A DNA stretch of 64,000 nucleotides from Planctomycetaceae bacterium (lineage in GTDB: Bacteria > Planctomycetota > Planctomycetia > Planctomycetales > Planctomycetaceae): positions 1 to 64,000 of the forward strand of contig JAKFWA010000024.1 in assembly GCA_021732995.1 (NCBI GenBank), written 5' to 3'. Shown in pieces: positions 37,625 to 45,350 of this stretch (within the stretch, counting starts at the first letter, position 1; every line of letters begins with the position of its first letter). Position numbers and translations under genes: made by a program. The notes under the pieces were generated by a model. That model ran no database searches and was not told the origin of the DNA. It saw only the letters and a list, made by a program, of their open reading frames with translations.

Positions 37625-38266
37625 GTGGAAATCTCCGAAGTCCGGATCAAACTGATGGATGATCCCAACGAACGGCTGTTGGGATTCTGTTCCGTCACTT
37701 TCGATGGCTGGTTTGTGATTCGCGACCTCAAGATCATTCAAGGATCGAAGGGCCCCTTCGTCGCGATGCCCAGCCGCAAGCTCACGGATCGCTGCCCACG
37801 CTGCGGAACCAAGAATCATCTCCGAGCCCGCTTCTGCAACGACTGCGGAGTGGAACTCGATGAAGACCGGGCCATCAAGGACGACGATGGCCGCGCCAAG
37901 TTATACGCCGATATCGCCCATCCCATTAACTCGATTTGCCGCGACGCTATTCAAAGGCGCGTCATCGAGTCCTGGGATAAAGAGAAGGTCCTCGCGAAGC
38001 AACCGGGCTACATCTGCACCTACGACGATTACGGCGAGGATCGCATCGCCAAGCTGAAGCACCCGCAGAAAGCGGCGCCGGCTCGCGGCACGCCCACGAT
38101 TCGCTTCGACGGGCCGAACGACTCCACTCGACGTATTGAACCCGGCCAGTCCGAGGTCGCGAGACCACACCATCTCGACAGCCCCAACGTCACGCCGTCC
38201 AAACTCTCAGCCGAATCCAACTGGGAAAGCGGCTTCGACGAAGGCTTTGGTGTTGGAGTTCAATAA
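37625..38266 (+). CDS. spoVG: SpoVG-family RNA/DNA-binding regulator with inserted zinc ribbon
   Basis: 213 aa from a GTG preceded by consensus AGGAGG. Residues 1-52 match SpoVG: 'EVRIKLMDDPNERLLGFCSV', 'WFVIRDLKIIQGSKGPFVAMPSRK'. The conserved fold then resumes at about 94 with 'YADIAHPINSICRDAIQRRV'. Between them a four-Cys knuckle (C57-x2-C60 and C71-x2-C74) reads as a zinc ribbon replacing the short loop of ordinary 85-100-aa SpoVG. The C-terminal 80 residues are low complexity and probably disordered. Classical SpoVG binds nucleic acid and controls gene expression post-transcriptionally; the zinc module may alter specificity. Confidence 0.9.
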   Translation: MEISEVRIKLMDDPNERLLGFCSVTFDGWFVIRDLKIIQGSKGPFVAMPSRKLTDRCPRCGTKNHLRARFCNDCGVELDEDRAIKDDDGRAKLYADIAHPINSICRDAIQRRVIESWDKEKVLAKQPGYICTYDDYGEDRIAKLKHPQKAAPARGTPTIRFDGPNDSTRRIEPGQSEVARPHHLDSPNVTPSKLSAESNWESGFDEGFGVGVQ

Positions 38267-38319: not shown

Positions 38320-39351
38320 ATGTCACGAAGACCGAACGTGCGAGTCGACCAGTTCGGGCTGCCGTTTCTGGTGCTCGAAGAGAATCGATTCGCCTTCGCG
38401 AGCGTCACTGCCCTCATTGAGGAAGCTCCGAAGTCGTATGGTCGCCAAGTGCTGATCTACGGCCCCACCGGCTGCGGCAAATCTCATTTGGCCGAACTGC
38501 TCGTGCGCGAACTGCGACGCACGGGGAAGCCTGAGATCACGAGCCTGTCCGCGTCAGAACTCCTCGTGGAAGACGCCGAGTCTTTGGATCAGAGGCTGAA
38601 GCTCGAAGCCGCGCCGCGCGGCAGCAAAGTGCGACGGGCCATCATCTGCAGCGACATTCAGGCGATCGTGAATCAGCAGGCGGCTCAGGCAAATCTGGTC
38701 CGCATCATGGACGACTGCCGCACCCTCAGCATTGATCTGCTGATGACGTCCAACAGGTCGCCGGGCGACCTTTCTGGATTGTCGGCGCGACTGAGAAACC
38801 GTTTGCAAAGCGGAGTCTGCGCGGCTGTTCGCAAGCCAGGGCCGACGGCTCGCCAAGCGTTGATCGAGCACTCTTGCAGCCACCTGCAGATCGCCATTCT
38901 GCCCGAAGCCATCAGGTTGCTGGCCAAGCAACTGCCGGTTTCGCCGCGTGAGCTGTTCGGTGCCGTGCAACGCTTCGATCAATTAGCCAGACAGCATCGA
39001 CAACAGCTCGATGCGTCCTTTGCCAAGGTCTTTCTGACACACGAAATCGCGCCGAAGACTCTGACGATTGATGATATCGCCAAAGCCGTCTCCAGAGAGT
39101 TCGGACTCAAACTCGTCGATGTGCGTTCTGACTTGCGCGACCAACAGCTCAAGACTGCCCGCCAGTGCGCAATGTTTCTGGCCCGCGAAATCGCTCGTGA
39201 ACCGTTAACCGTCATCGGTGCGTACTTCGGCAACCGCAGCCACAGCACCGTGCTGCACAGCTGCCATCGCATTCAGGAATCGCTGGGCGAAGACGCCAAG
39301 CTGCGGCAGCGTTTGGAGATCATCCGGCAGTCACTCGGCAGCGGTTTGTAA
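38320..39351 (+). CDS. DnaA-like AAA+ ATPase (domains III and IV only)
   Basis: 343 aa, shorter than replication initiator DnaA (about 450) because domains I and II are missing. Walker A 'YGPTGCGKSHLAE' (residues 47-59); the Walker B position reads 'AIICSDIQAI', with Ser111-Asp112 in place of Asp-Asp. Sensor I region 'LLMTSNRSPGDLSGLSARLRNRL' matches DnaA. The C-terminal domain IV has 'ARQCAMFLAREIAREPL' and 'IGAYFGNRSHSTVLHSCHRI', the DnaA-box-binding signature with N-R-S-H for the usual G-R-D-H. So it is a paralogue of DnaA, not an Hda, and may bind DNA and influence replication or transcription. Follows spoVG by 53 bp. Confidence 0.88.
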   Translation: MSRRPNVRVDQFGLPFLVLEENRFAFASVTALIEEAPKSYGRQVLIYGPTGCGKSHLAELLVRELRRTGKPEITSLSASELLVEDAESLDQRLKLEAAPRGSKVRRAIICSDIQAIVNQQAAQANLVRIMDDCRTLSIDLLMTSNRSPGDLSGLSARLRNRLQSGVCAAVRKPGPTARQALIEHSCSHLQIAILPEAIRLLAKQLPVSPRELFGAVQRFDQLARQHRQQLDASFAKVFLTHEIAPKTLTIDDIAKAVSREFGLKLVDVRSDLRDQQLKTARQCAMFLAREIAREPLTVIGAYFGNRSHSTVLHSCHRIQESLGEDAKLRQRLEIIRQSLGSGL

Positions 39352-40229: not shown

Positions 40230-41765
40230 ATGCAAACGCATTCGAAGCTTCCTGCGACACAGAACCGCGCTGAATTTCATGACTGCTGGCAGCGGCTCGT
40301 TCGCTGGTCGCCAGACGATCAAGAGTCCGCATCCCCGTTCGCAATGCGACTGGCCAAGGAAGAGGGTTGGTCATTGGCCTTCGCTCGGCGAGCTATTGAG
40401 GAATACAAACGCTTCGTATTCCTGAGCGTCGTTGCCGGACACGTGGTCTGCCCTTCTGAAGAAGTCGATCAGGTCTGGCACATGCACCTGACCTTCACGA
40501 TGTCTTACTGGAGTGACTTGTGCGACCAGGTACTGCAACAACCGTTGCATCACCATCCATCGAAAGGCGGTCGCGCGGAACACGACAAGCATGTGGCGCT
40601 CTACGAACAAACGCTGGCGAGCTATCGCTTCTGGTTCGGTGAAGAACCACCCGAGGAGATCTGGCCAACGCCGGCACGACGCTTTGAGGATGATGACGCC
40701 CGGCGCGTGAGTCTGCGGCGCTATTGGCTATTGAAAAAGCCCGCCCCGAGACTGCTCGCAGTTGTGAGCGAGAAGCTGCAACAAGCCGGTCAGATAGCCG
40801 CACGTCATTTGTGGTTCCCTGGACGACGTATGCGATGGGCAGGTGCTCTGGCGATCCTGCCTCTGGCTGCAACAGGGAATCCCCTGAACTGGTCGGGAGT
40901 GGAGTTTCTCGGCCTCTACGCCGCGGTATTGGCAGGCGTCATCAGCCTCGGCTCGATGATCCGATATGCATGGTGGCCTGAGGACGAAGAGCCGACCGAG
41001 AACCTCACGCCGGAAGAAGTGGCGTGCCTGCAGGGCAACGACAAGCTGGCCATTCATACGGCATTGGCACGCCTGATGACGACGAATGTCATTCAATGCA
41101 TTCCATTCGGATCAGAAGAACACTTCCGGATCAGCGGCCCGTTGCCAGAGCAGCCTTCGCAGCTTGAGTCGGCACTCATCAGCAAGATCAGCAACAGTCA
41201 AGACGTCACGCTCGCAGACCTGCATGCAACAGGTTCACCCGTCACCCAGTCGCTGGAATCCGCGTTGCGTGATCGCGGCTGGCTGACGACCGAAGACTAC
41301 GCATCGACCGCGCGCTTCGTTCCCTTCGTGATGACCGCCGGTGTCGCCATTGTTGGCGCCGCCAAAGTGGCGGTGGGACTAAGCCGTGAGAAGCCCGTCG
41401 GGTTCTTGACCGTGGCCGTTGTGGTCACGTTCGTCATCGCGCTGATGTTCCTGAAAAGGCCTCGCGTTACTCACGCCGTGCATCGCTGGTTGAAAGAGCA
41501 GCGCGCGACGCACAGCCCGCTTAAGGACGTGCGCAGCATGTCCAATCCCACCAGCCAGGATGTAGCCTTGGCGACCGCGCTATTTGGATCACTCGCGTTG
41601 ACCGGCACCGTCTGCGAGCCACTGCAAGCCGCGTGGCTTCGTAACCGGAAGACAGCCGGGTCGAGTGGCTGCGGAACAAGCGGCTGTGGTGCCAGTGGCT
41701 GCGGCGGAGGCGGGTGTGGAGGTGGAAGCGGCTGCGGAGGTTGTGGCGGCGGTGGTGGTGACTGA
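40230..41765 (+). CDS. TIGR04222-type membrane protein with Cys/Gly-rich tail
   Basis: 511 aa from an ATG with AAGGAG. The N-terminal 130 residues carry 'YKRFVFLSVVAG', 'EEVDQVWHMHLTFT' and 'HHHPSKGG', the pattern of the plant-type glycine-rich-domain (GRDP) module. Membrane helices lie near 205-250 and 365-410. The last 35 residues are only Gly, Cys, Ser and Ala with Cys every third to fifth position (GCGTSGCGASGCGGGG and onward), the typical end of TIGR04222 proteins. Function of the family is unknown; a cysteine-rich extracytoplasmic tail suggests metal binding or cross-linking. Confidence 0.82.
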   Translation: MQTHSKLPATQNRAEFHDCWQRLVRWSPDDQESASPFAMRLAKEEGWSLAFARRAIEEYKRFVFLSVVAGHVVCPSEEVDQVWHMHLTFTMSYWSDLCDQVLQQPLHHHPSKGGRAEHDKHVALYEQTLASYRFWFGEEPPEEIWPTPARRFEDDDARRVSLRRYWLLKKPAPRLLAVVSEKLQQAGQIAARHLWFPGRRMRWAGALAILPLAATGNPLNWSGVEFLGLYAAVLAGVISLGSMIRYAWWPEDEEPTENLTPEEVACLQGNDKLAIHTALARLMTTNVIQCIPFGSEEHFRISGPLPEQPSQLESALISKISNSQDVTLADLHATGSPVTQSLESALRDRGWLTTEDYASTARFVPFVMTAGVAIVGAAKVAVGLSREKPVGFLTVAVVVTFVIALMFLKRPRVTHAVHRWLKEQRATHSPLKDVRSMSNPTSQDVALATALFGSLALTGTVCEPLQAAWLRNRKTAGSSGCGTSGCGASGCGGGGCGGGSGCGGCGGGGGD

Positions 41766-42006
41766 ACCCCGGTCGTGTCTTGCTTTCAGATCCAGTCTGA
41801 ACTCAAGAAGTGAGTAGAAGCTCGCTTCATCTTGCTCTCGCCGATCGAGTCCCGGCCCTCAGTTCGAAAACGGCCTTGTCTTCGGTTGCCAACTGGCTGC
41901 CCCGAACTCATCGTTCTACCGGTAAGTTTGTACTCGTTCTGAGGCAGACTCGTGAATCTGCTTCGCGAGGCAATCGATGACCAGCGCACCGGTGGAAGGA
42001 TTGCTC

Positions 42007-43458
42007 ATGGCTGATCTGGCGGATGGCGAATCAGTGGAAGTGAAGGGGTCGGCGGCGAAGCCGTATGTCATCAAGAACACGGGTGGAGTTTACTCGTGTT
42101 CGTGCCCGGCCTGGCGGAATCAGTCGATCGCGATCGAGCAGCGGACCTGCAAGCACATCCGCAAGATTCGCGGCGACGAAGCTGAGAACGCACGCATCGG
42201 CTCCGCGCTGCCGCAGAAGCCTGTGAAGGCATCGAAGAGTACGACTGAAGGTGAAGAAGACGCGGGCAGCACGGAACCTCCAATTCTGCTCGCCGAGTCT
42301 TGGGACAATGCACTCGACCTCGCCGGCTGGTGGATGAGCGAGAAGCTCGATGGTGTCCGGGCCTATTGGGACGGCAAGCAATTCATCTCGCGGCAAGGCA
42401 ATTTGTACCACGCTCCGGACTGGTTCATTGAAGGTCTGCCAAGTGTGCCGCTGGACGGTGAGTTGTGGCTTGATCGCAAGGCGTTTCAGCGAACAGTCAG
42501 CATCGTGCGGAGGCAAGACAAGAGCGACCAGTGGAAGAGCATTCGCTATCTGGTATTCGATGCTCCGTCGCAGACAGGACGATTTGAGGAACGTTTGGAG
42601 TTCCTCAAGGATGGTGCGTCTTCCTGGAAAAACGAGTTCCTGCAGGTTCATCAGCAAGAGCTGTGTCGCGATGTAATTCAACTGCGCGAAGAATTGAGAC
42701 GCATCGAGTCAGTGGGTGGCGAGGGGCTCATGCTGCGCGAGCCAGGCTCGTTGTATGTTGCGGGCCGCTCCACAACGCTGCTGAAGGTCAAGACCTTCCA
42801 TGATGCGGAGGCCGTTGTGATCGGTCACGAACCCGGCAAAGGTCGACATGCGGGCCGATTGGGGGCGCTCGTCGCACAGTTGCCAAGCGGAAAACAGTTC
42901 TCTGTTGGTACCGGCTTCAGCGACCGCCAGCGCGAGAATCCGCCAGCCATCGGCAGCCTGATTCAGTTCCGCTATCAGGAGCTGAGCGACGCCGGCATCC
43001 CACGTTTCCCGAGCTACGTCGGCCTTCGCACGGATGTCGATCTCGGATCGGCAACTCCAACAACTGCCGAGCCTGTGAAGAAGCAGGCGGCTGATGTCAT
43101 CAAGGTGCCAGCCCCTCGCGCGAAGAGTCAGGCGACGACTAAGTCGGAAAAGGCAGTTGCCGCCGCTTCTACCCCGGCTGCACCTCCTGTCGCGCCCGGC
43201 GGACCGCGGCTCTTCGAGTTTGTGGAAGGAACGTCCAGCAAGTTCTGGGAGATCAGCCTTGCGGGCAGTGATGTTACGACTCGTTGGGGTCGTATCGGAA
43301 CCGATGGACAATCCAAAACAAAACCCTTTGGCAGTCCCGAGAAGGCCCGCGCTGAATACGACAAGCTCGTCGCCGAGAAGACCGGTAAGGGATATGTGGA
43401 AGTTGGTGGAAGCGCTGCACCTGAAGGTCTCGTGGAGACTTCCTTGCGTGTCTTATAG
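42007..43458 (+). CDS. ATP-dependent DNA ligase fused to SWIM and WGR domains
   Basis: 483 aa. Residues 31-50 form a SWIM zinc finger (C31-x-C33, C48-x-H50). The nucleotidyltransferase core follows, with adenylation Lys113 in 'SEKLDGVRAYWDG', 'LDGELWLDRK', 'VGGEGLMLREPGS' and 'LLKVKTFHDAEAVVIG', then a small OB-fold with 'LIQFRYQELSDAGIPRFP'. After a Pro/Ala linker, a WGR domain ends the protein ('SKFWEISLAGSDVTTRWGRIG'). An ATG at 41977 also has a fair ribosome site; 42007 has the stronger GGAAGGA and starts at the SWIM module. Such ligases seal nicks with ATP, and the extra domains likely guide it to damaged DNA. The neighbouring fragment also belongs to a WGR-associated family. Confidence 0.93.
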   Translation: MADLADGESVEVKGSAAKPYVIKNTGGVYSCSCPAWRNQSIAIEQRTCKHIRKIRGDEAENARIGSALPQKPVKASKSTTEGEEDAGSTEPPILLAESWDNALDLAGWWMSEKLDGVRAYWDGKQFISRQGNLYHAPDWFIEGLPSVPLDGELWLDRKAFQRTVSIVRRQDKSDQWKSIRYLVFDAPSQTGRFEERLEFLKDGASSWKNEFLQVHQQELCRDVIQLREELRRIESVGGEGLMLREPGSLYVAGRSTTLLKVKTFHDAEAVVIGHEPGKGRHAGRLGALVAQLPSGKQFSVGTGFSDRQRENPPAIGSLIQFRYQELSDAGIPRFPSYVGLRTDVDLGSATPTTAEPVKKQAADVIKVPAPRAKSQATTKSEKAVAAASTPAAPPVAPGGPRLFEFVEGTSSKFWEISLAGSDVTTRWGRIGTDGQSKTKPFGSPEKARAEYDKLVAEKTGKGYVEVGGSAAPEGLVETSLRVL

Positions 43459-43501
43459 ATGGAGCAGCTCGATCGCACACAAGACGACGAGGATCTCGGT
43501 G

Positions 43502-44035
43502 ACGTGCTGGATACCGTATCGTGAGTATGCACCCGATGATGACGTGATGGCGCTAAACGATGTTCCGCCGCTGGCGCTGTCCGAGATCATGCGCGACGCT
43601 GATTTGTTCGTCGGAGTATCCAGTCTGGGCAACGATCCCAACTGGCACGACGGTGGGCAGGGCGGCTACTACCGCGACTACTGGACTGGGTACTCGTTCG
43701 GAACGTTGTCGGAGTCCGCGAAGACTCGTCGCGAGGTCCTGCAGCGACTGATCCCGCGATTGAAGATCGCAGGCCGTTGCACGTTCGAGAATCGCTTCCT
43801 GGTGGTCCGGGGAGATCTGCGGACGTACCGCATCCACTTCGGCAGCGGCAATATTCAGATGGAGCCGAACGATCAATACCTGTGCATCGTCCCTAAGCCA
43901 GACGCGGGTGAGGATGTCTTCCTGCCCTTCGAAGGAGATCGCACGCTGTCGATCATCTTGAGCAAAGCCCTGATGCTGGCTGACGACAAGAAGATCAAAG
44001 ACCCGACGATCCTGTCACAGATTCAACTGCGTTGA
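43502..44035 (+). pseudogene. C-terminal remnant of DUF4132/DUF7737 (MolR-like) protein
   Basis: About 175 codons match my recollection of the C-terminal end of WGR-DUF4132-DUF7737 proteins: 'PPLALSEIMRDADLFVGVSSLGNDPNW', 'GYYRDYWTGYSFG', 'RLIPRLKIAGRCTFENRFLVVRGDLRTY' split across the region and 'HFGSGNIQMEPNDQYLCIVP'. The full proteins exceed 1000 aa; everything N-terminal is missing because the DNA ligase gene ends 43 bp upstream. The first in-frame ATG is at 43547 with no clear ribosome site. Either a decayed remnant or a stand-alone domain. The frame continues upstream into the ligase gene only by chance. Confidence 0.75.
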
Positions 44036-44098: not shown

Positions 44099-44896
44099 AT
44101 GGACTACAGCAAGATTGACAGCTTCGCTGGGTGGGTCGGCATTGGGCTGGCCGTGTATTTCCTGCTGCCCACCTTGCTGATTTACTTCATGCAGGTCTTT
44201 CGTGCCGAGAACATGGCTCAGCCGCTAAAACCAGACGTTCTGCTACCTCCGACGGTCAACTCTGAACTCTCGATGTATCGTCGAGATCTGGTGCAACTGG
44301 GGTTCGAGTCGCGTGGCATCCTCCTCATCTCCGGCATGGTCAACAATGTCACCGCGCTGTCGGAACTTTATGTGAATTCAGCGTCAGGCGACCTCGCGCT
44401 CGTCAGCTACATCTATAGCATCGTCAACGGGGAGTTGGGTGAGACAACTCAGTACACCGAGTACGTCCGCCGATTTCGCTCGGCCGATCTGGTACTGCTG
44501 CAGACCAACAACGCGGATCGGCGTGGTGCGTTTCTGGATGATCCTGGAGAGCTTTCATTCCGACTGCCTTCCGTGGCTGACATCCGCGAACTTTACGCTT
44601 TGCACTTGCGACTCCTGGAACGCCACGCGGCGGGCATGAGGCCATTCATCCGAGTGGATGAAGAGTTTGGCGGTGATCGACTGAAGTACCTGGAAGCGAT
44701 CACGCGCGAGTGCTTTGAACGTCAGACGGAGCGCGGCTGGATGAAGTACAACGAGCAAGGCAAATACTGGAAGCCGACGCTGTGGGGTGCATTTCGCATG
44801 GTGGCTCAGGAACTGCCCCCGATTAAGCAGATCCGCGCGATGCGACATCGAACGCTAGGCCGTCGCCACCTGATGGAACTCAGCGAGGCGTTCTGA
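44099..44896 (+). CDS. Uncharacterised membrane-anchored protein
   Basis: 265 aa with AAAGGA before the ATG. One membrane helix (about 12-33) follows a short polar start. The rest is a soluble, mixed alpha/beta-looking domain with no motif I recognise ('MYRRDLVQLGFESRGILLISGM', 'FRLPSVADIRELYALHLRLLERH', 'GRRHLMELSEAF'). It sits between the DUF4132 remnant and the beta-grasp-like gene, 55 bp before the latter, so it may belong to the same functional unit, but this is inference. Confidence 0.7.
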   Translation: MDYSKIDSFAGWVGIGLAVYFLLPTLLIYFMQVFRAENMAQPLKPDVLLPPTVNSELSMYRRDLVQLGFESRGILLISGMVNNVTALSELYVNSASGDLALVSYIYSIVNGELGETTQYTEYVRRFRSADLVLLQTNNADRRGAFLDDPGELSFRLPSVADIRELYALHLRLLERHAAGMRPFIRVDEEFGGDRLKYLEAITRECFERQTERGWMKYNEQGKYWKPTLWGAFRMVAQELPPIKQIRAMRHRTLGRRHLMELSEAF

Positions 44897-44951
44897 GAAC
44901 GCGCTGCGAACCGATGTGTTTCGACGACTCGATTAGATGTGCGAGGATGCC

Positions 44952-45350
44952 ATGACGACACTGTTGATTCGCGACGAGGACCTGAGCACCGGTAAGGCCA
45001 TTCAGGAGTTCTCGCTCGACTTCCTGACGGAGCACATCACGGTCAGGGAGCTCATTCGCAGCCGCGTCTATCAGGAAGTCAACGACTTCAATCTTCGCGG
45101 AAGTAAAGGCGAGTTTCGTGGCATCATCGCGTCTGCGAACTCTGAGCGTACGGCGACGGGCTATCGCATGAAGACCTCGCGAAGCATTGATTGGAAGGAA
45201 CAGTTCGTGTTGGCGACGCAGGCCTTTGAGCAGGGACGAGTGCTGATTCTCGTGAACGATCAGCAGATGCAGTCGCTGGATGAAGAGATCACAGTTGCTG
45301 CTCAGACCGTCGTCACGTTCGTGAAGCTTGTATTACTGGTTGGTGGTTGA
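44952..45350 (+). CDS. Putative ubiquitin/MoaD-like beta-grasp protein ending in Gly-Gly
   Basis: 132 aa from the ATG at 44952 (GAGG six bases upstream); an ATG at 44937 is weaker. An N-terminal beta-hairpin-like part (residues 3-28), helix 'VRELIRSRVYQEVNDF' (31-46), an insert of about 45 residues, then 'RVLILVNDQQMQSLDEEITV' and the final strand 'VTFVKLVLLVGG' ending exactly at Gly131-Gly132. Order and spacing recall ubiquitin and MoaD/ThiS. Proteins of this pattern, as I recall, neighbour DUF4132 genes. Family recognition is from memory; the beta-grasp fold is inference from pattern, and the free C-terminal diglycine is seen directly. Confidence 0.7.
   Translation: MTTLLIRDEDLSTGKAIQEFSLDFLTEHITVRELIRSRVYQEVNDFNLRGSKGEFRGIIASANSERTATGYRMKTSRSIDWKEQFVLATQAFEQGRVLILVNDQQMQSLDEEITVAAQTVVTFVKLVLLVGG

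Follow-up and report, generated by a model that had tools for sequence, protein, structure and literature searches.

The question raised by this locus is whether a small protein whose reading frame stops directly behind two glycines is a ubiquitin-like (Ubl) protein and, if so, with which partner it works. The window, that is the whole stretch of 64,000 nucleotides analysed here, is derived from a Planctomycetaceae bacterium, and the first-pass annotation had taken the protein for a possible small modifier of an undescribed conjugation or sulfur-relay system partnered with DUF4132 and WGR proteins. The features concerned are the following:

41977..43458, + strand: neighbouring gene encoding DNA ligase domains and a C-terminal WGR domain (Pfam DNA_ligase_OB_2, DNA_ligase_A_M, WGR)
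about 43547..44035, + strand: remnant of a DUF4132 gene bearing DUF7737, 162 aa from the ATG nearest the homologous part (Pfam PF24879)
43883..43885, + strand: TGC codon, retained in the remnant, for the DUF7737 cysteine linked to Gly-Gly by covariation (motif QYLCIVP)
44099..44896, + strand: ORF of 265 aa separating the remnant from the Ubl gene, with no family over the cut-off (Pfam, NCBIfam)
44952..45350, + strand: Ubl protein of 132 aa ending in Gly-Gly-stop (translation, family alignments, AlphaFold2)
45342..45347, + strand: codons of the terminal Gly-Gly (translation; stop codon at 45348-45350)

The open frame of the Ubl gene is real: it codes for 132 aa with Gly-Gly before the stop, it has a paralogue, and relatives are present in 30 of the 170 Planctomycetaceae genomes. 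The protein ends in ...VTFVKLVLLVGG, directly followed by TGA (Val-Gly-Gly-stop), and a second possible in-frame ATG lies 15 bases upstream, at 44937. No Pfam or NCBIfam model matched it over the cut-off. The open frame of the remnant is listed from 43094, and the frame 43094-44035 matched PF24879 with an E-value of 1.8e-42. The window was described at first sight as a DUF4132-WGR neighbourhood; a DUF7737 end, just behind the ligase-WGR gene, and a WGR domain are indeed there, but the rest of the DUF4132 protein is absent. The product of 41977-43458, which also carries a SWIM-like zinc finger motif at its N-terminus according to a reading by eye, probably lies outside the Ubl system, and the 265-aa ORF fell into no cluster with ORFs of 35 other neighbourhoods. 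Further upstream, the window encodes a SpoVG-zinc-ribbon protein (37625-38266) adjoining a 343-aa DnaA-type ATPase with the DnaA C-terminal helix-turn-helix (38320-39351), and a TIGR04222 membrane protein with a Gly/Cys-rich end (40230-41765) precedes the ligase-WGR gene.

The AlphaFold2 model of the window Ubl (79-row alignment) reached a pLDDT of 85.8 and a pTM of 0.81. The model begins with two strands and a helix; after an insert predicted with low confidence (about residues 50-80) come another helix and further strands, followed by an unstructured tail whose residues 130-132 have pLDDT values below 50. The layout read from the letters alone, with its long insert, is common to 30 aligned members, as is the tail, and has only to be extended by the second helix before the last strands. 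A Foldseek search of the PDB with the model gave no match at E <= 0.001. The top row by E-value was a staphylococcal enterotoxin, which contains another beta-grasp domain (probability 0.57), and the rows of highest probability included the MoaD-type 5mpo_A (0.99, E 0.025) and SAMP1 (0.96). The best 50 rows of VIA-align were nearly all ubiquitin, ISG15, NEDD8, SAMP1, MoaD-type or other ubiquitin-like proteins, the SAMP1 chain 3po0 being among the best, with Z values of 6.9-8.2 (8.2 for 5mpo_A) that are near the background of this tool. The assignment is persuasive because the matches are uniform in kind, not because of the Z values, and the proposal that the protein is a beta-grasp of ubiquitin-like type holds for the predicted structure.

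Relatives of the Ubl are widespread. Twenty of 392 genomes in an even draw from the Planctomycetota contained them, and when 84,980 species genomes were scanned with a pattern, at least 493 relatives emerged and 80 loci were kept; a scan of species-genome contigs with a single Ubl protein as query gave no match. According to the record titles, the family occurs in 14 phyla. The 80 loci, many of which are metagenome bins, belong to Planctomycetota (36), Actinomycetota (20), Bacteroidota (4), no named phylum (4), Verrucomicrobiota, Cyanobacteriota and Armatimonadota (3 each), Chloroflexota (2) and Gemmatimonadota, Nitrospirota, Calditrichota, Omnitrophota and Acidobacteriota (one each); members from Deinococcota and Pseudomonadota came from plasmid records. 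Two branches can be distinguished. In branch A the Ubl has about 130 aa, its tail is usually L-V-G-G and the partner protein usually has about 800-1100 aa, and in branch B the respective features are about 140 aa, usually L-A-G-G and about 1700 aa, one scanned branch B partner carrying DUF5724 and HEAT-like repeats. None of 79 Ubl members matched a Pfam model at E <= 0.01, and the comparison of 30 members with NCBIfam produced only stray matches to three unrelated models, with one or two members each. No relatives were found in viral contigs (one pattern scan) or in phages (single Ubl query).

The gene that neighbours the Ubl gene encodes a DUF4132 protein whose end is formed by DUF7737. In the first clustering, this partner was present in 68 of the 80 loci and every other neighbour cluster in 10 at most. 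By the profile count, the same 80 species-genome loci comprised 61 with the Ubl gene followed by the DUF4132 gene, seven with the reverse order, four with an overlap not scored as adjacent and eight with the Ubl only; the corresponding numbers for the 35 Ubl-anchored loci of the host family were 25, three, one (an overlap missed as adjacency by the script) and six. Among 40 loci found via DUF7737, the Ubl came first in 24 and second in four, two showed an unscored overlap and ten had no Ubl in the stretch. Several of the single-gene loci are contig ends, and in some loci the two genes overlap by a few bases. Both genes were found in 28 of the 170 Planctomycetaceae genomes, the Ubl only in two and DUF7737 only in four. 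Since adjacency is kept in both gene orders, the two genes apparently form a working pair, and the suggested partnership with DUF4132 proteins was borne out in most of the loci examined. No Ubl-DUF4132 fusion occurred among the ORFs scanned. In one genome (G152), the Ubl (L043) and the DUF4132 partner (L206) lie on two contigs, each alone in its stretch.

The other proposed associations fared differently. WGR was rejected as a partner in the system, as a simple pattern applied to the called ORFs found a WGR-like motif in only two of 116 partly overlapping neighbourhoods, one of them being a fusion (L048 10267-13365) of such a motif to a DUF4132 protein adjoining a Ubl. A molybdate connection, suggested by the name MolR, was also rejected; no cluster but the partner recurred in more than 10 of 80 loci, so that nothing points to molybdopterin genes, and the idea survives only within the sulfur-relay alternative. 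The same count argues against an E2-like gene as a regular neighbour. E. coli MolR/YehI shares the DUF4132 domain (tblastn, about 240-300 residues) but differs with respect to DUF7737, which was present in none of 14 control genomes, E. coli among them. The E1-like or JAB gene that the first-pass annotation would have looked for among the neighbours did not appear either. A phmmer comparison with 3708 called ORFs of the 116 partly overlapping neighbourhoods (E <= 1e-3) gave no match but the controls, and among six-frame ORFs of at least 80 aa from these neighbourhoods only the two positive controls, both recovered, matched at the same threshold. The queries were two ThiF-family proteins of the bacterium's own genome, one of them with a JAB-like part (by eye).

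Most members of the Ubl family and the paralogue on contig C24 of the same genome are paired, whereas the window keeps the DUF7737 end only. The paralogue is 63% identical to the window Ubl and belongs to an intact pair (L032). As the partner gene in the window is truncated, the window Ubl would need an intact partner elsewhere in the genome, or it is decaying. It is plausible, if not quite probable, that the window copy is a functionless leftover of a broken pair: the partner is cut down to its DUF7737 end and another contig has the intact pair. On the other hand, the Ubl frame is unbroken and its Gly-Gly retained, and the changes towards the paralogue are mostly silent (dN 0.29, dS 1.78), a ratio that cannot date the selection.

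What the pair may do is suggested by a cysteine in the DUF7737 motif [LVI]C[IV][VI]P. In 148 Ubl-partner pairs, the cysteine was present with all 138 Gly-Gly tails and absent with all ten tails without Gly-Gly (Fisher 9.8e-16; all Fisher counts given here ignore kinship). In 136 of the 138 the stop follows Gly-Gly immediately, and in the other two one or two residues intervene. Since the scan behind the 80 loci used a Gly-Gly pattern, the 64 pairs taken from it are uninformative on the frequency of Gly-Gly but valid for the cysteine side (64/64 with Cys). The remaining sample, obtained without this pattern, comprised 84 pairs, 74 with Gly-Gly and Cys and ten with neither (Fisher 3.6e-13). The claim of a free C-terminal Gly-Gly is thus well supported, 72 of these 84 Ubls having a terminal Gly-Gly and two having one or two extra residues behind it. 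Its invariance among orthologues, which the first-pass annotation had named as a check, is limited: Gly-Gly is kept in most but missing in ten of the 84. As these ten are exactly the pairs without the DUF7737 cysteine, the exceptions speak for a function of Gly-Gly rather than against it. In a table of 139 pairs, with duplicates and unreadable rows dropped, the cysteine was found in 129 of 129 readable Gly-Gly pairs and in none of nine non-Gly-Gly pairs. Among 60 columns conserved to at least 90% in the Gly-Gly set, the Cys column showed the strongest association (2.6e-14), nine orders of magnitude ahead of the next one (2.6e-5).

The link was noticed while reading the conserved DUF7737 residues in the partners of a few Ubls without Gly-Gly, and five non-Gly-Gly pairs read afterwards all fit it: the AGA-tailed L212, L213 (both copies of one genome) and L223 have Phe in place of Cys, L214 ends in Leu-Ser-Gly and also has Phe, and L233 ends in GRMW and has Asn. 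Three groups were dropped before the pairs were counted: loci with no DUF4132 within reach (15), duplicate Ubls (15) and loci lacking a Ubl (11). Two loci without a readable DUF7737 motif were dropped as well, of which L216 was restored by hand and L125 left out. L235 and L241, which have no Ubl, stand outside the count, L117 was left out since its motif is cut, and the tail of L237, whose Ubl frame is interrupted by a stop, was taken from the second piece. The cysteine is replaced by F, S, Y, A or N in the pairs without Gly-Gly, and five different replacements are to be expected if a constraint is released. Five B-type Ubls without Gly-Gly from Bacteroidota and Verrucomicrobiota end in Trp (L171 RLW, L174 and L175 SYW, L176 TYW, L233 RMW); this alternative ending is conserved, and the rows form one clade and count once. 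Two Chloroflexota Ubls (L238, L240) have one or two residues behind Gly-Gly and partners with the cysteine, which fits precursors that need trimming like the eukaryotic ones. A point against a reaction between tail and cysteine is that DUF7737 proteins without a Ubl in their stretch mostly carry the cysteine (10 of 11, plus L235 and L241); at least four of the genomes concerned (G014, G096, G152, G753) have a Ubl elsewhere, and some of the stretches are contig ends. The exception, which fits the link, is encoded on an Acetobacter plasmid (L170 3831-6629): a DUF4132+DUF7737-like protein with no adjoining Ubl and with Phe at the place of the cysteine (by eye), the ORF upstream of it being unrelated to Ubls. 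The His of the cysteine motif is not strictly kept (Asn in L216), and therefore a classical catalytic pair is not evident.

Kinship was considered with trees of the C-terminal part of the partner, from which the Cys column had been removed (36 rows, mostly branch B). The trees leave out most A-type pairs, and the final one also L216, L239 and five near copies. On the best tree, Gly-Gly and Cys each change four times, three losses being on well-supported branches. A single clade of all non-Gly-Gly rows was rejected (AU p 3.6e-6; 8.9e-5 and 0.011 with earlier row sets), and a Pagel-type test run with our own code preferred dependent change (LR 31.1, p 2.9e-6). The sign test on independent contrasts gave p 0.25 with three contrasts (four on the best tree), a value below which it cannot go with so few independent losses. 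If the glycine carboxyl and the thiol react, one expects Gly-Gly to be retained right up to the C-terminus, the cysteine to be retained wherever Gly-Gly is, and both to be released together, and this is the pattern observed. The link thus speaks for a covalent or hydrolytic reaction of the tail with the cysteine.

We consider it just about probable that the Ubl and the DUF4132-DUF7737 protein form a two-gene system in which the tail reacts with the DUF7737 cysteine, a thioester being the favoured product. A housekeeping E1 of the MoeB/ThiF type would first activate the Ubl, the Ubl tail would enter the DUF7737 site, and a thioester would form between its carboxyl end and the cysteine; the Ubl would then be transferred to a target or stay bound to the partner. 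Alternatively, the same cysteine may serve a hydrolase that processes or deconjugates. Lineages without Gly-Gly and Cys retain the pair, probably as a non-covalent complex, and these pairs suggest that the two proteins may also belong together without tail-cysteine chemistry. This is where a purely structural role has to be weighed, in which the tail would bind next to the cysteine without a covalent bond and the two positions would coevolve because they are in contact. Ten pairs do persist without Gly-Gly and Cys, and five of them, from the Trp-ended clade, show that tail conservation can have other causes. However, a cysteine that is constant in 138 of 138 Gly-Gly pairs across many phyla and otherwise gives way to F, S, Y, A or N resembles a loss of function and not a fitted contact, and the position of Gly-Gly exactly at the stop in 136 of 138 likewise argues against mere docking, which we hold to be unlikely. 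The Gly-Gly/Cys pattern together with the Chloroflexota tails places a thioester or hydrolytic step first, with a sulfur relay and the structural role behind it.

The pair can be connected with a physiological condition in Deinococcus. In D. radiodurans (L169), the DUF4132 gene is immediately preceded by a gene for a hypothetical protein, which is a B-type Ubl with the end LAGG. According to a study of the DdrO regulon, DRA0165, in a putative operon with drA0166, meets all three regulon criteria, with the motif GGTTATGCTATTTACATAAC (PMC8533742). A figure legend reports that tagged DRA0166 was induced by mitomycin C in dependence on IrrE and DdrO, although it once writes DRA0165, and the authors suggested a molybdopterin role for DUF4132 but found moeA and moeB unchanged (PMC8533742). 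The identical motif GGTTATGCTATTTACATAAC lies upstream of the Ubl in L169, and motif and gene order lead us to infer that the L169 pair is DRA0165-DRA0166. The Ubl genes of D. psychrotolerans and of Deinococcus sp. D7000 are preceded by similar sites, so that three of the four Deinococcus loci carry one. These sites were located with a second pattern, as a loose RDRM pattern had not picked up that of D. radiodurans itself; in D. ficus, inspection by eye shows no more than a degenerate palindrome. Outside Deinococcus, SOS-type boxes upstream of the Ubl were not enriched: LexA-type patterns occurred in none of 81 upstream regions, and a PafBC-like pattern in two of 81 compared with 0.4 expected, which is a weak signal. 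In L169 (1652-12469), the pair lies a few genes from modA, a thiazole synthase gene and thiS.

Proteins of the MoaD/ThiS family (PF02597) are the obvious relatives with which the Ubl is to be compared, as they share the beta-grasp fold and the C-terminal Gly-Gly, which was invariant in 12 ThiS-family rows from five genomes. They act with MoaE or ThiG, whereas the Ubl has DUF4132 as its partner and carries an insert of about 30 residues. The PF02597 search of the five genomes did not list their Ubl places, and hhalign gave the Ubl profile a probability of 1.8% (E 0.027). Descent of the Ubl from ThiS/MoaD was rejected as a claim, the profile comparison being too weak. The similarity raises the question of a sulfur relay, in which a MoaD/ThiS-like Ubl thiocarboxylate gives its sulfur to the DUF7737 cysteine or forms an acyl disulfide with it. 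Such a relay would be compatible with the Gly-Gly/Cys covariation, the most confident solved match is of the MoaD type (5mpo_A, probability 0.99, E 0.025, Z 8.2), and the genome encodes a ThiF-family E1. We nevertheless regard it as quite improbable, as the Ubl lies outside the ThiS family by profile, no sulfurtransferase or cofactor gene recurs beside it (the partner is the only cluster in more than 10 of 80 loci), and, in the Deinococcus study, DNA damage reportedly induced the pair without a change in moeA/moeB (PMC8533742).

The activation step postulated for the favoured thioester system could be provided from outside the locus, for ThiF-family E1 proteins are encoded at two other places of the same genome. 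One contig of the host (C51:55763-56287, L246) carries a 562-aa frame in which a JAB-like part (by eye) and a ThiF/E1 part seem to be fused; it looks like a separate prokaryotic Ubl-type system, located on another contig than the Ubl copies. The Haloferax SAMP proteins share the E1 UbaA, and Thermus TtuB is comparable. SAMPs are likewise small beta-grasp proteins ended by Gly-Gly, SAMP1 (3po0) is among the best structural matches of the Ubl, and dependence on a shared housekeeping E1 would be a further parallel; the dedicated DUF4132+DUF7737 partner with a linked cysteine distinguishes the Ubl from both. Bil, type II CBASS with Cap2/Cap3 and the E1-JAB operons, which contain E1/E2-like and JAB genes, represent Ubl-like tail chemistry in bacteria as well. 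They differ in that no E1/JAB-like gene was found beside the Ubl-DUF4132 pair and that two Ubls and two partners matched no PADLOC model at E <= 0.01.

A further step would be to regard DUF7737 as a catalytic cysteine domain, that is a new class of Ubl-handling enzyme unrelated in sequence to the known E1, E2, E3 and deubiquitinase families. With the Ubl and DUF4132 it would form a compact pathway, switched on by DNA damage in Deinococcus, whose Ubl is activated by a borrowed housekeeping E1 or by the system itself, and of which dead versions lacking Gly-Gly and Cys would have arisen several times. This extension is doubtful at present. In the predicted model of the partner, the N-terminal half resembles helical repeats of the HEAT/ARM type. 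No enzyme fold was recognised for DUF7737, and the structural matches listed cover the N-terminal helical part of the partner, so that the lack of an enzyme family among them excludes nothing for the C-terminal half. A sequence search for a solved relative of DUF7737 gave nothing convincing.

Prokaryotic Ubl systems are usually recognised via their E1, E2 or JAB genes. Beside the Ubl-DUF4132 pair no E1/JAB-like gene was found, and the Ubl has no family model. No publication naming DUF7737 was found in a search of the literature other than preprints and most subscription papers, and in the same search DUF4132 occurred in three papers, one of which, a Leptospira survey, also mentions ubiquitin. 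The Ubl is thus accompanied by an unrecognised partner, and the retention of Gly-Gly only alongside the cysteine of this partner points to unrecognised ubiquitin-like chemistry in bacteria. The link between Gly-Gly and the cysteine names two residues to mutate, for which D. radiodurans, harmless and established in the laboratory, is a suitable organism. Should DUF7737 turn out to be the enzyme, it would represent a new class, and the proposed system, if true, would provide the first mechanistic handle on the DUF4132 proteins, which have been known since molR.
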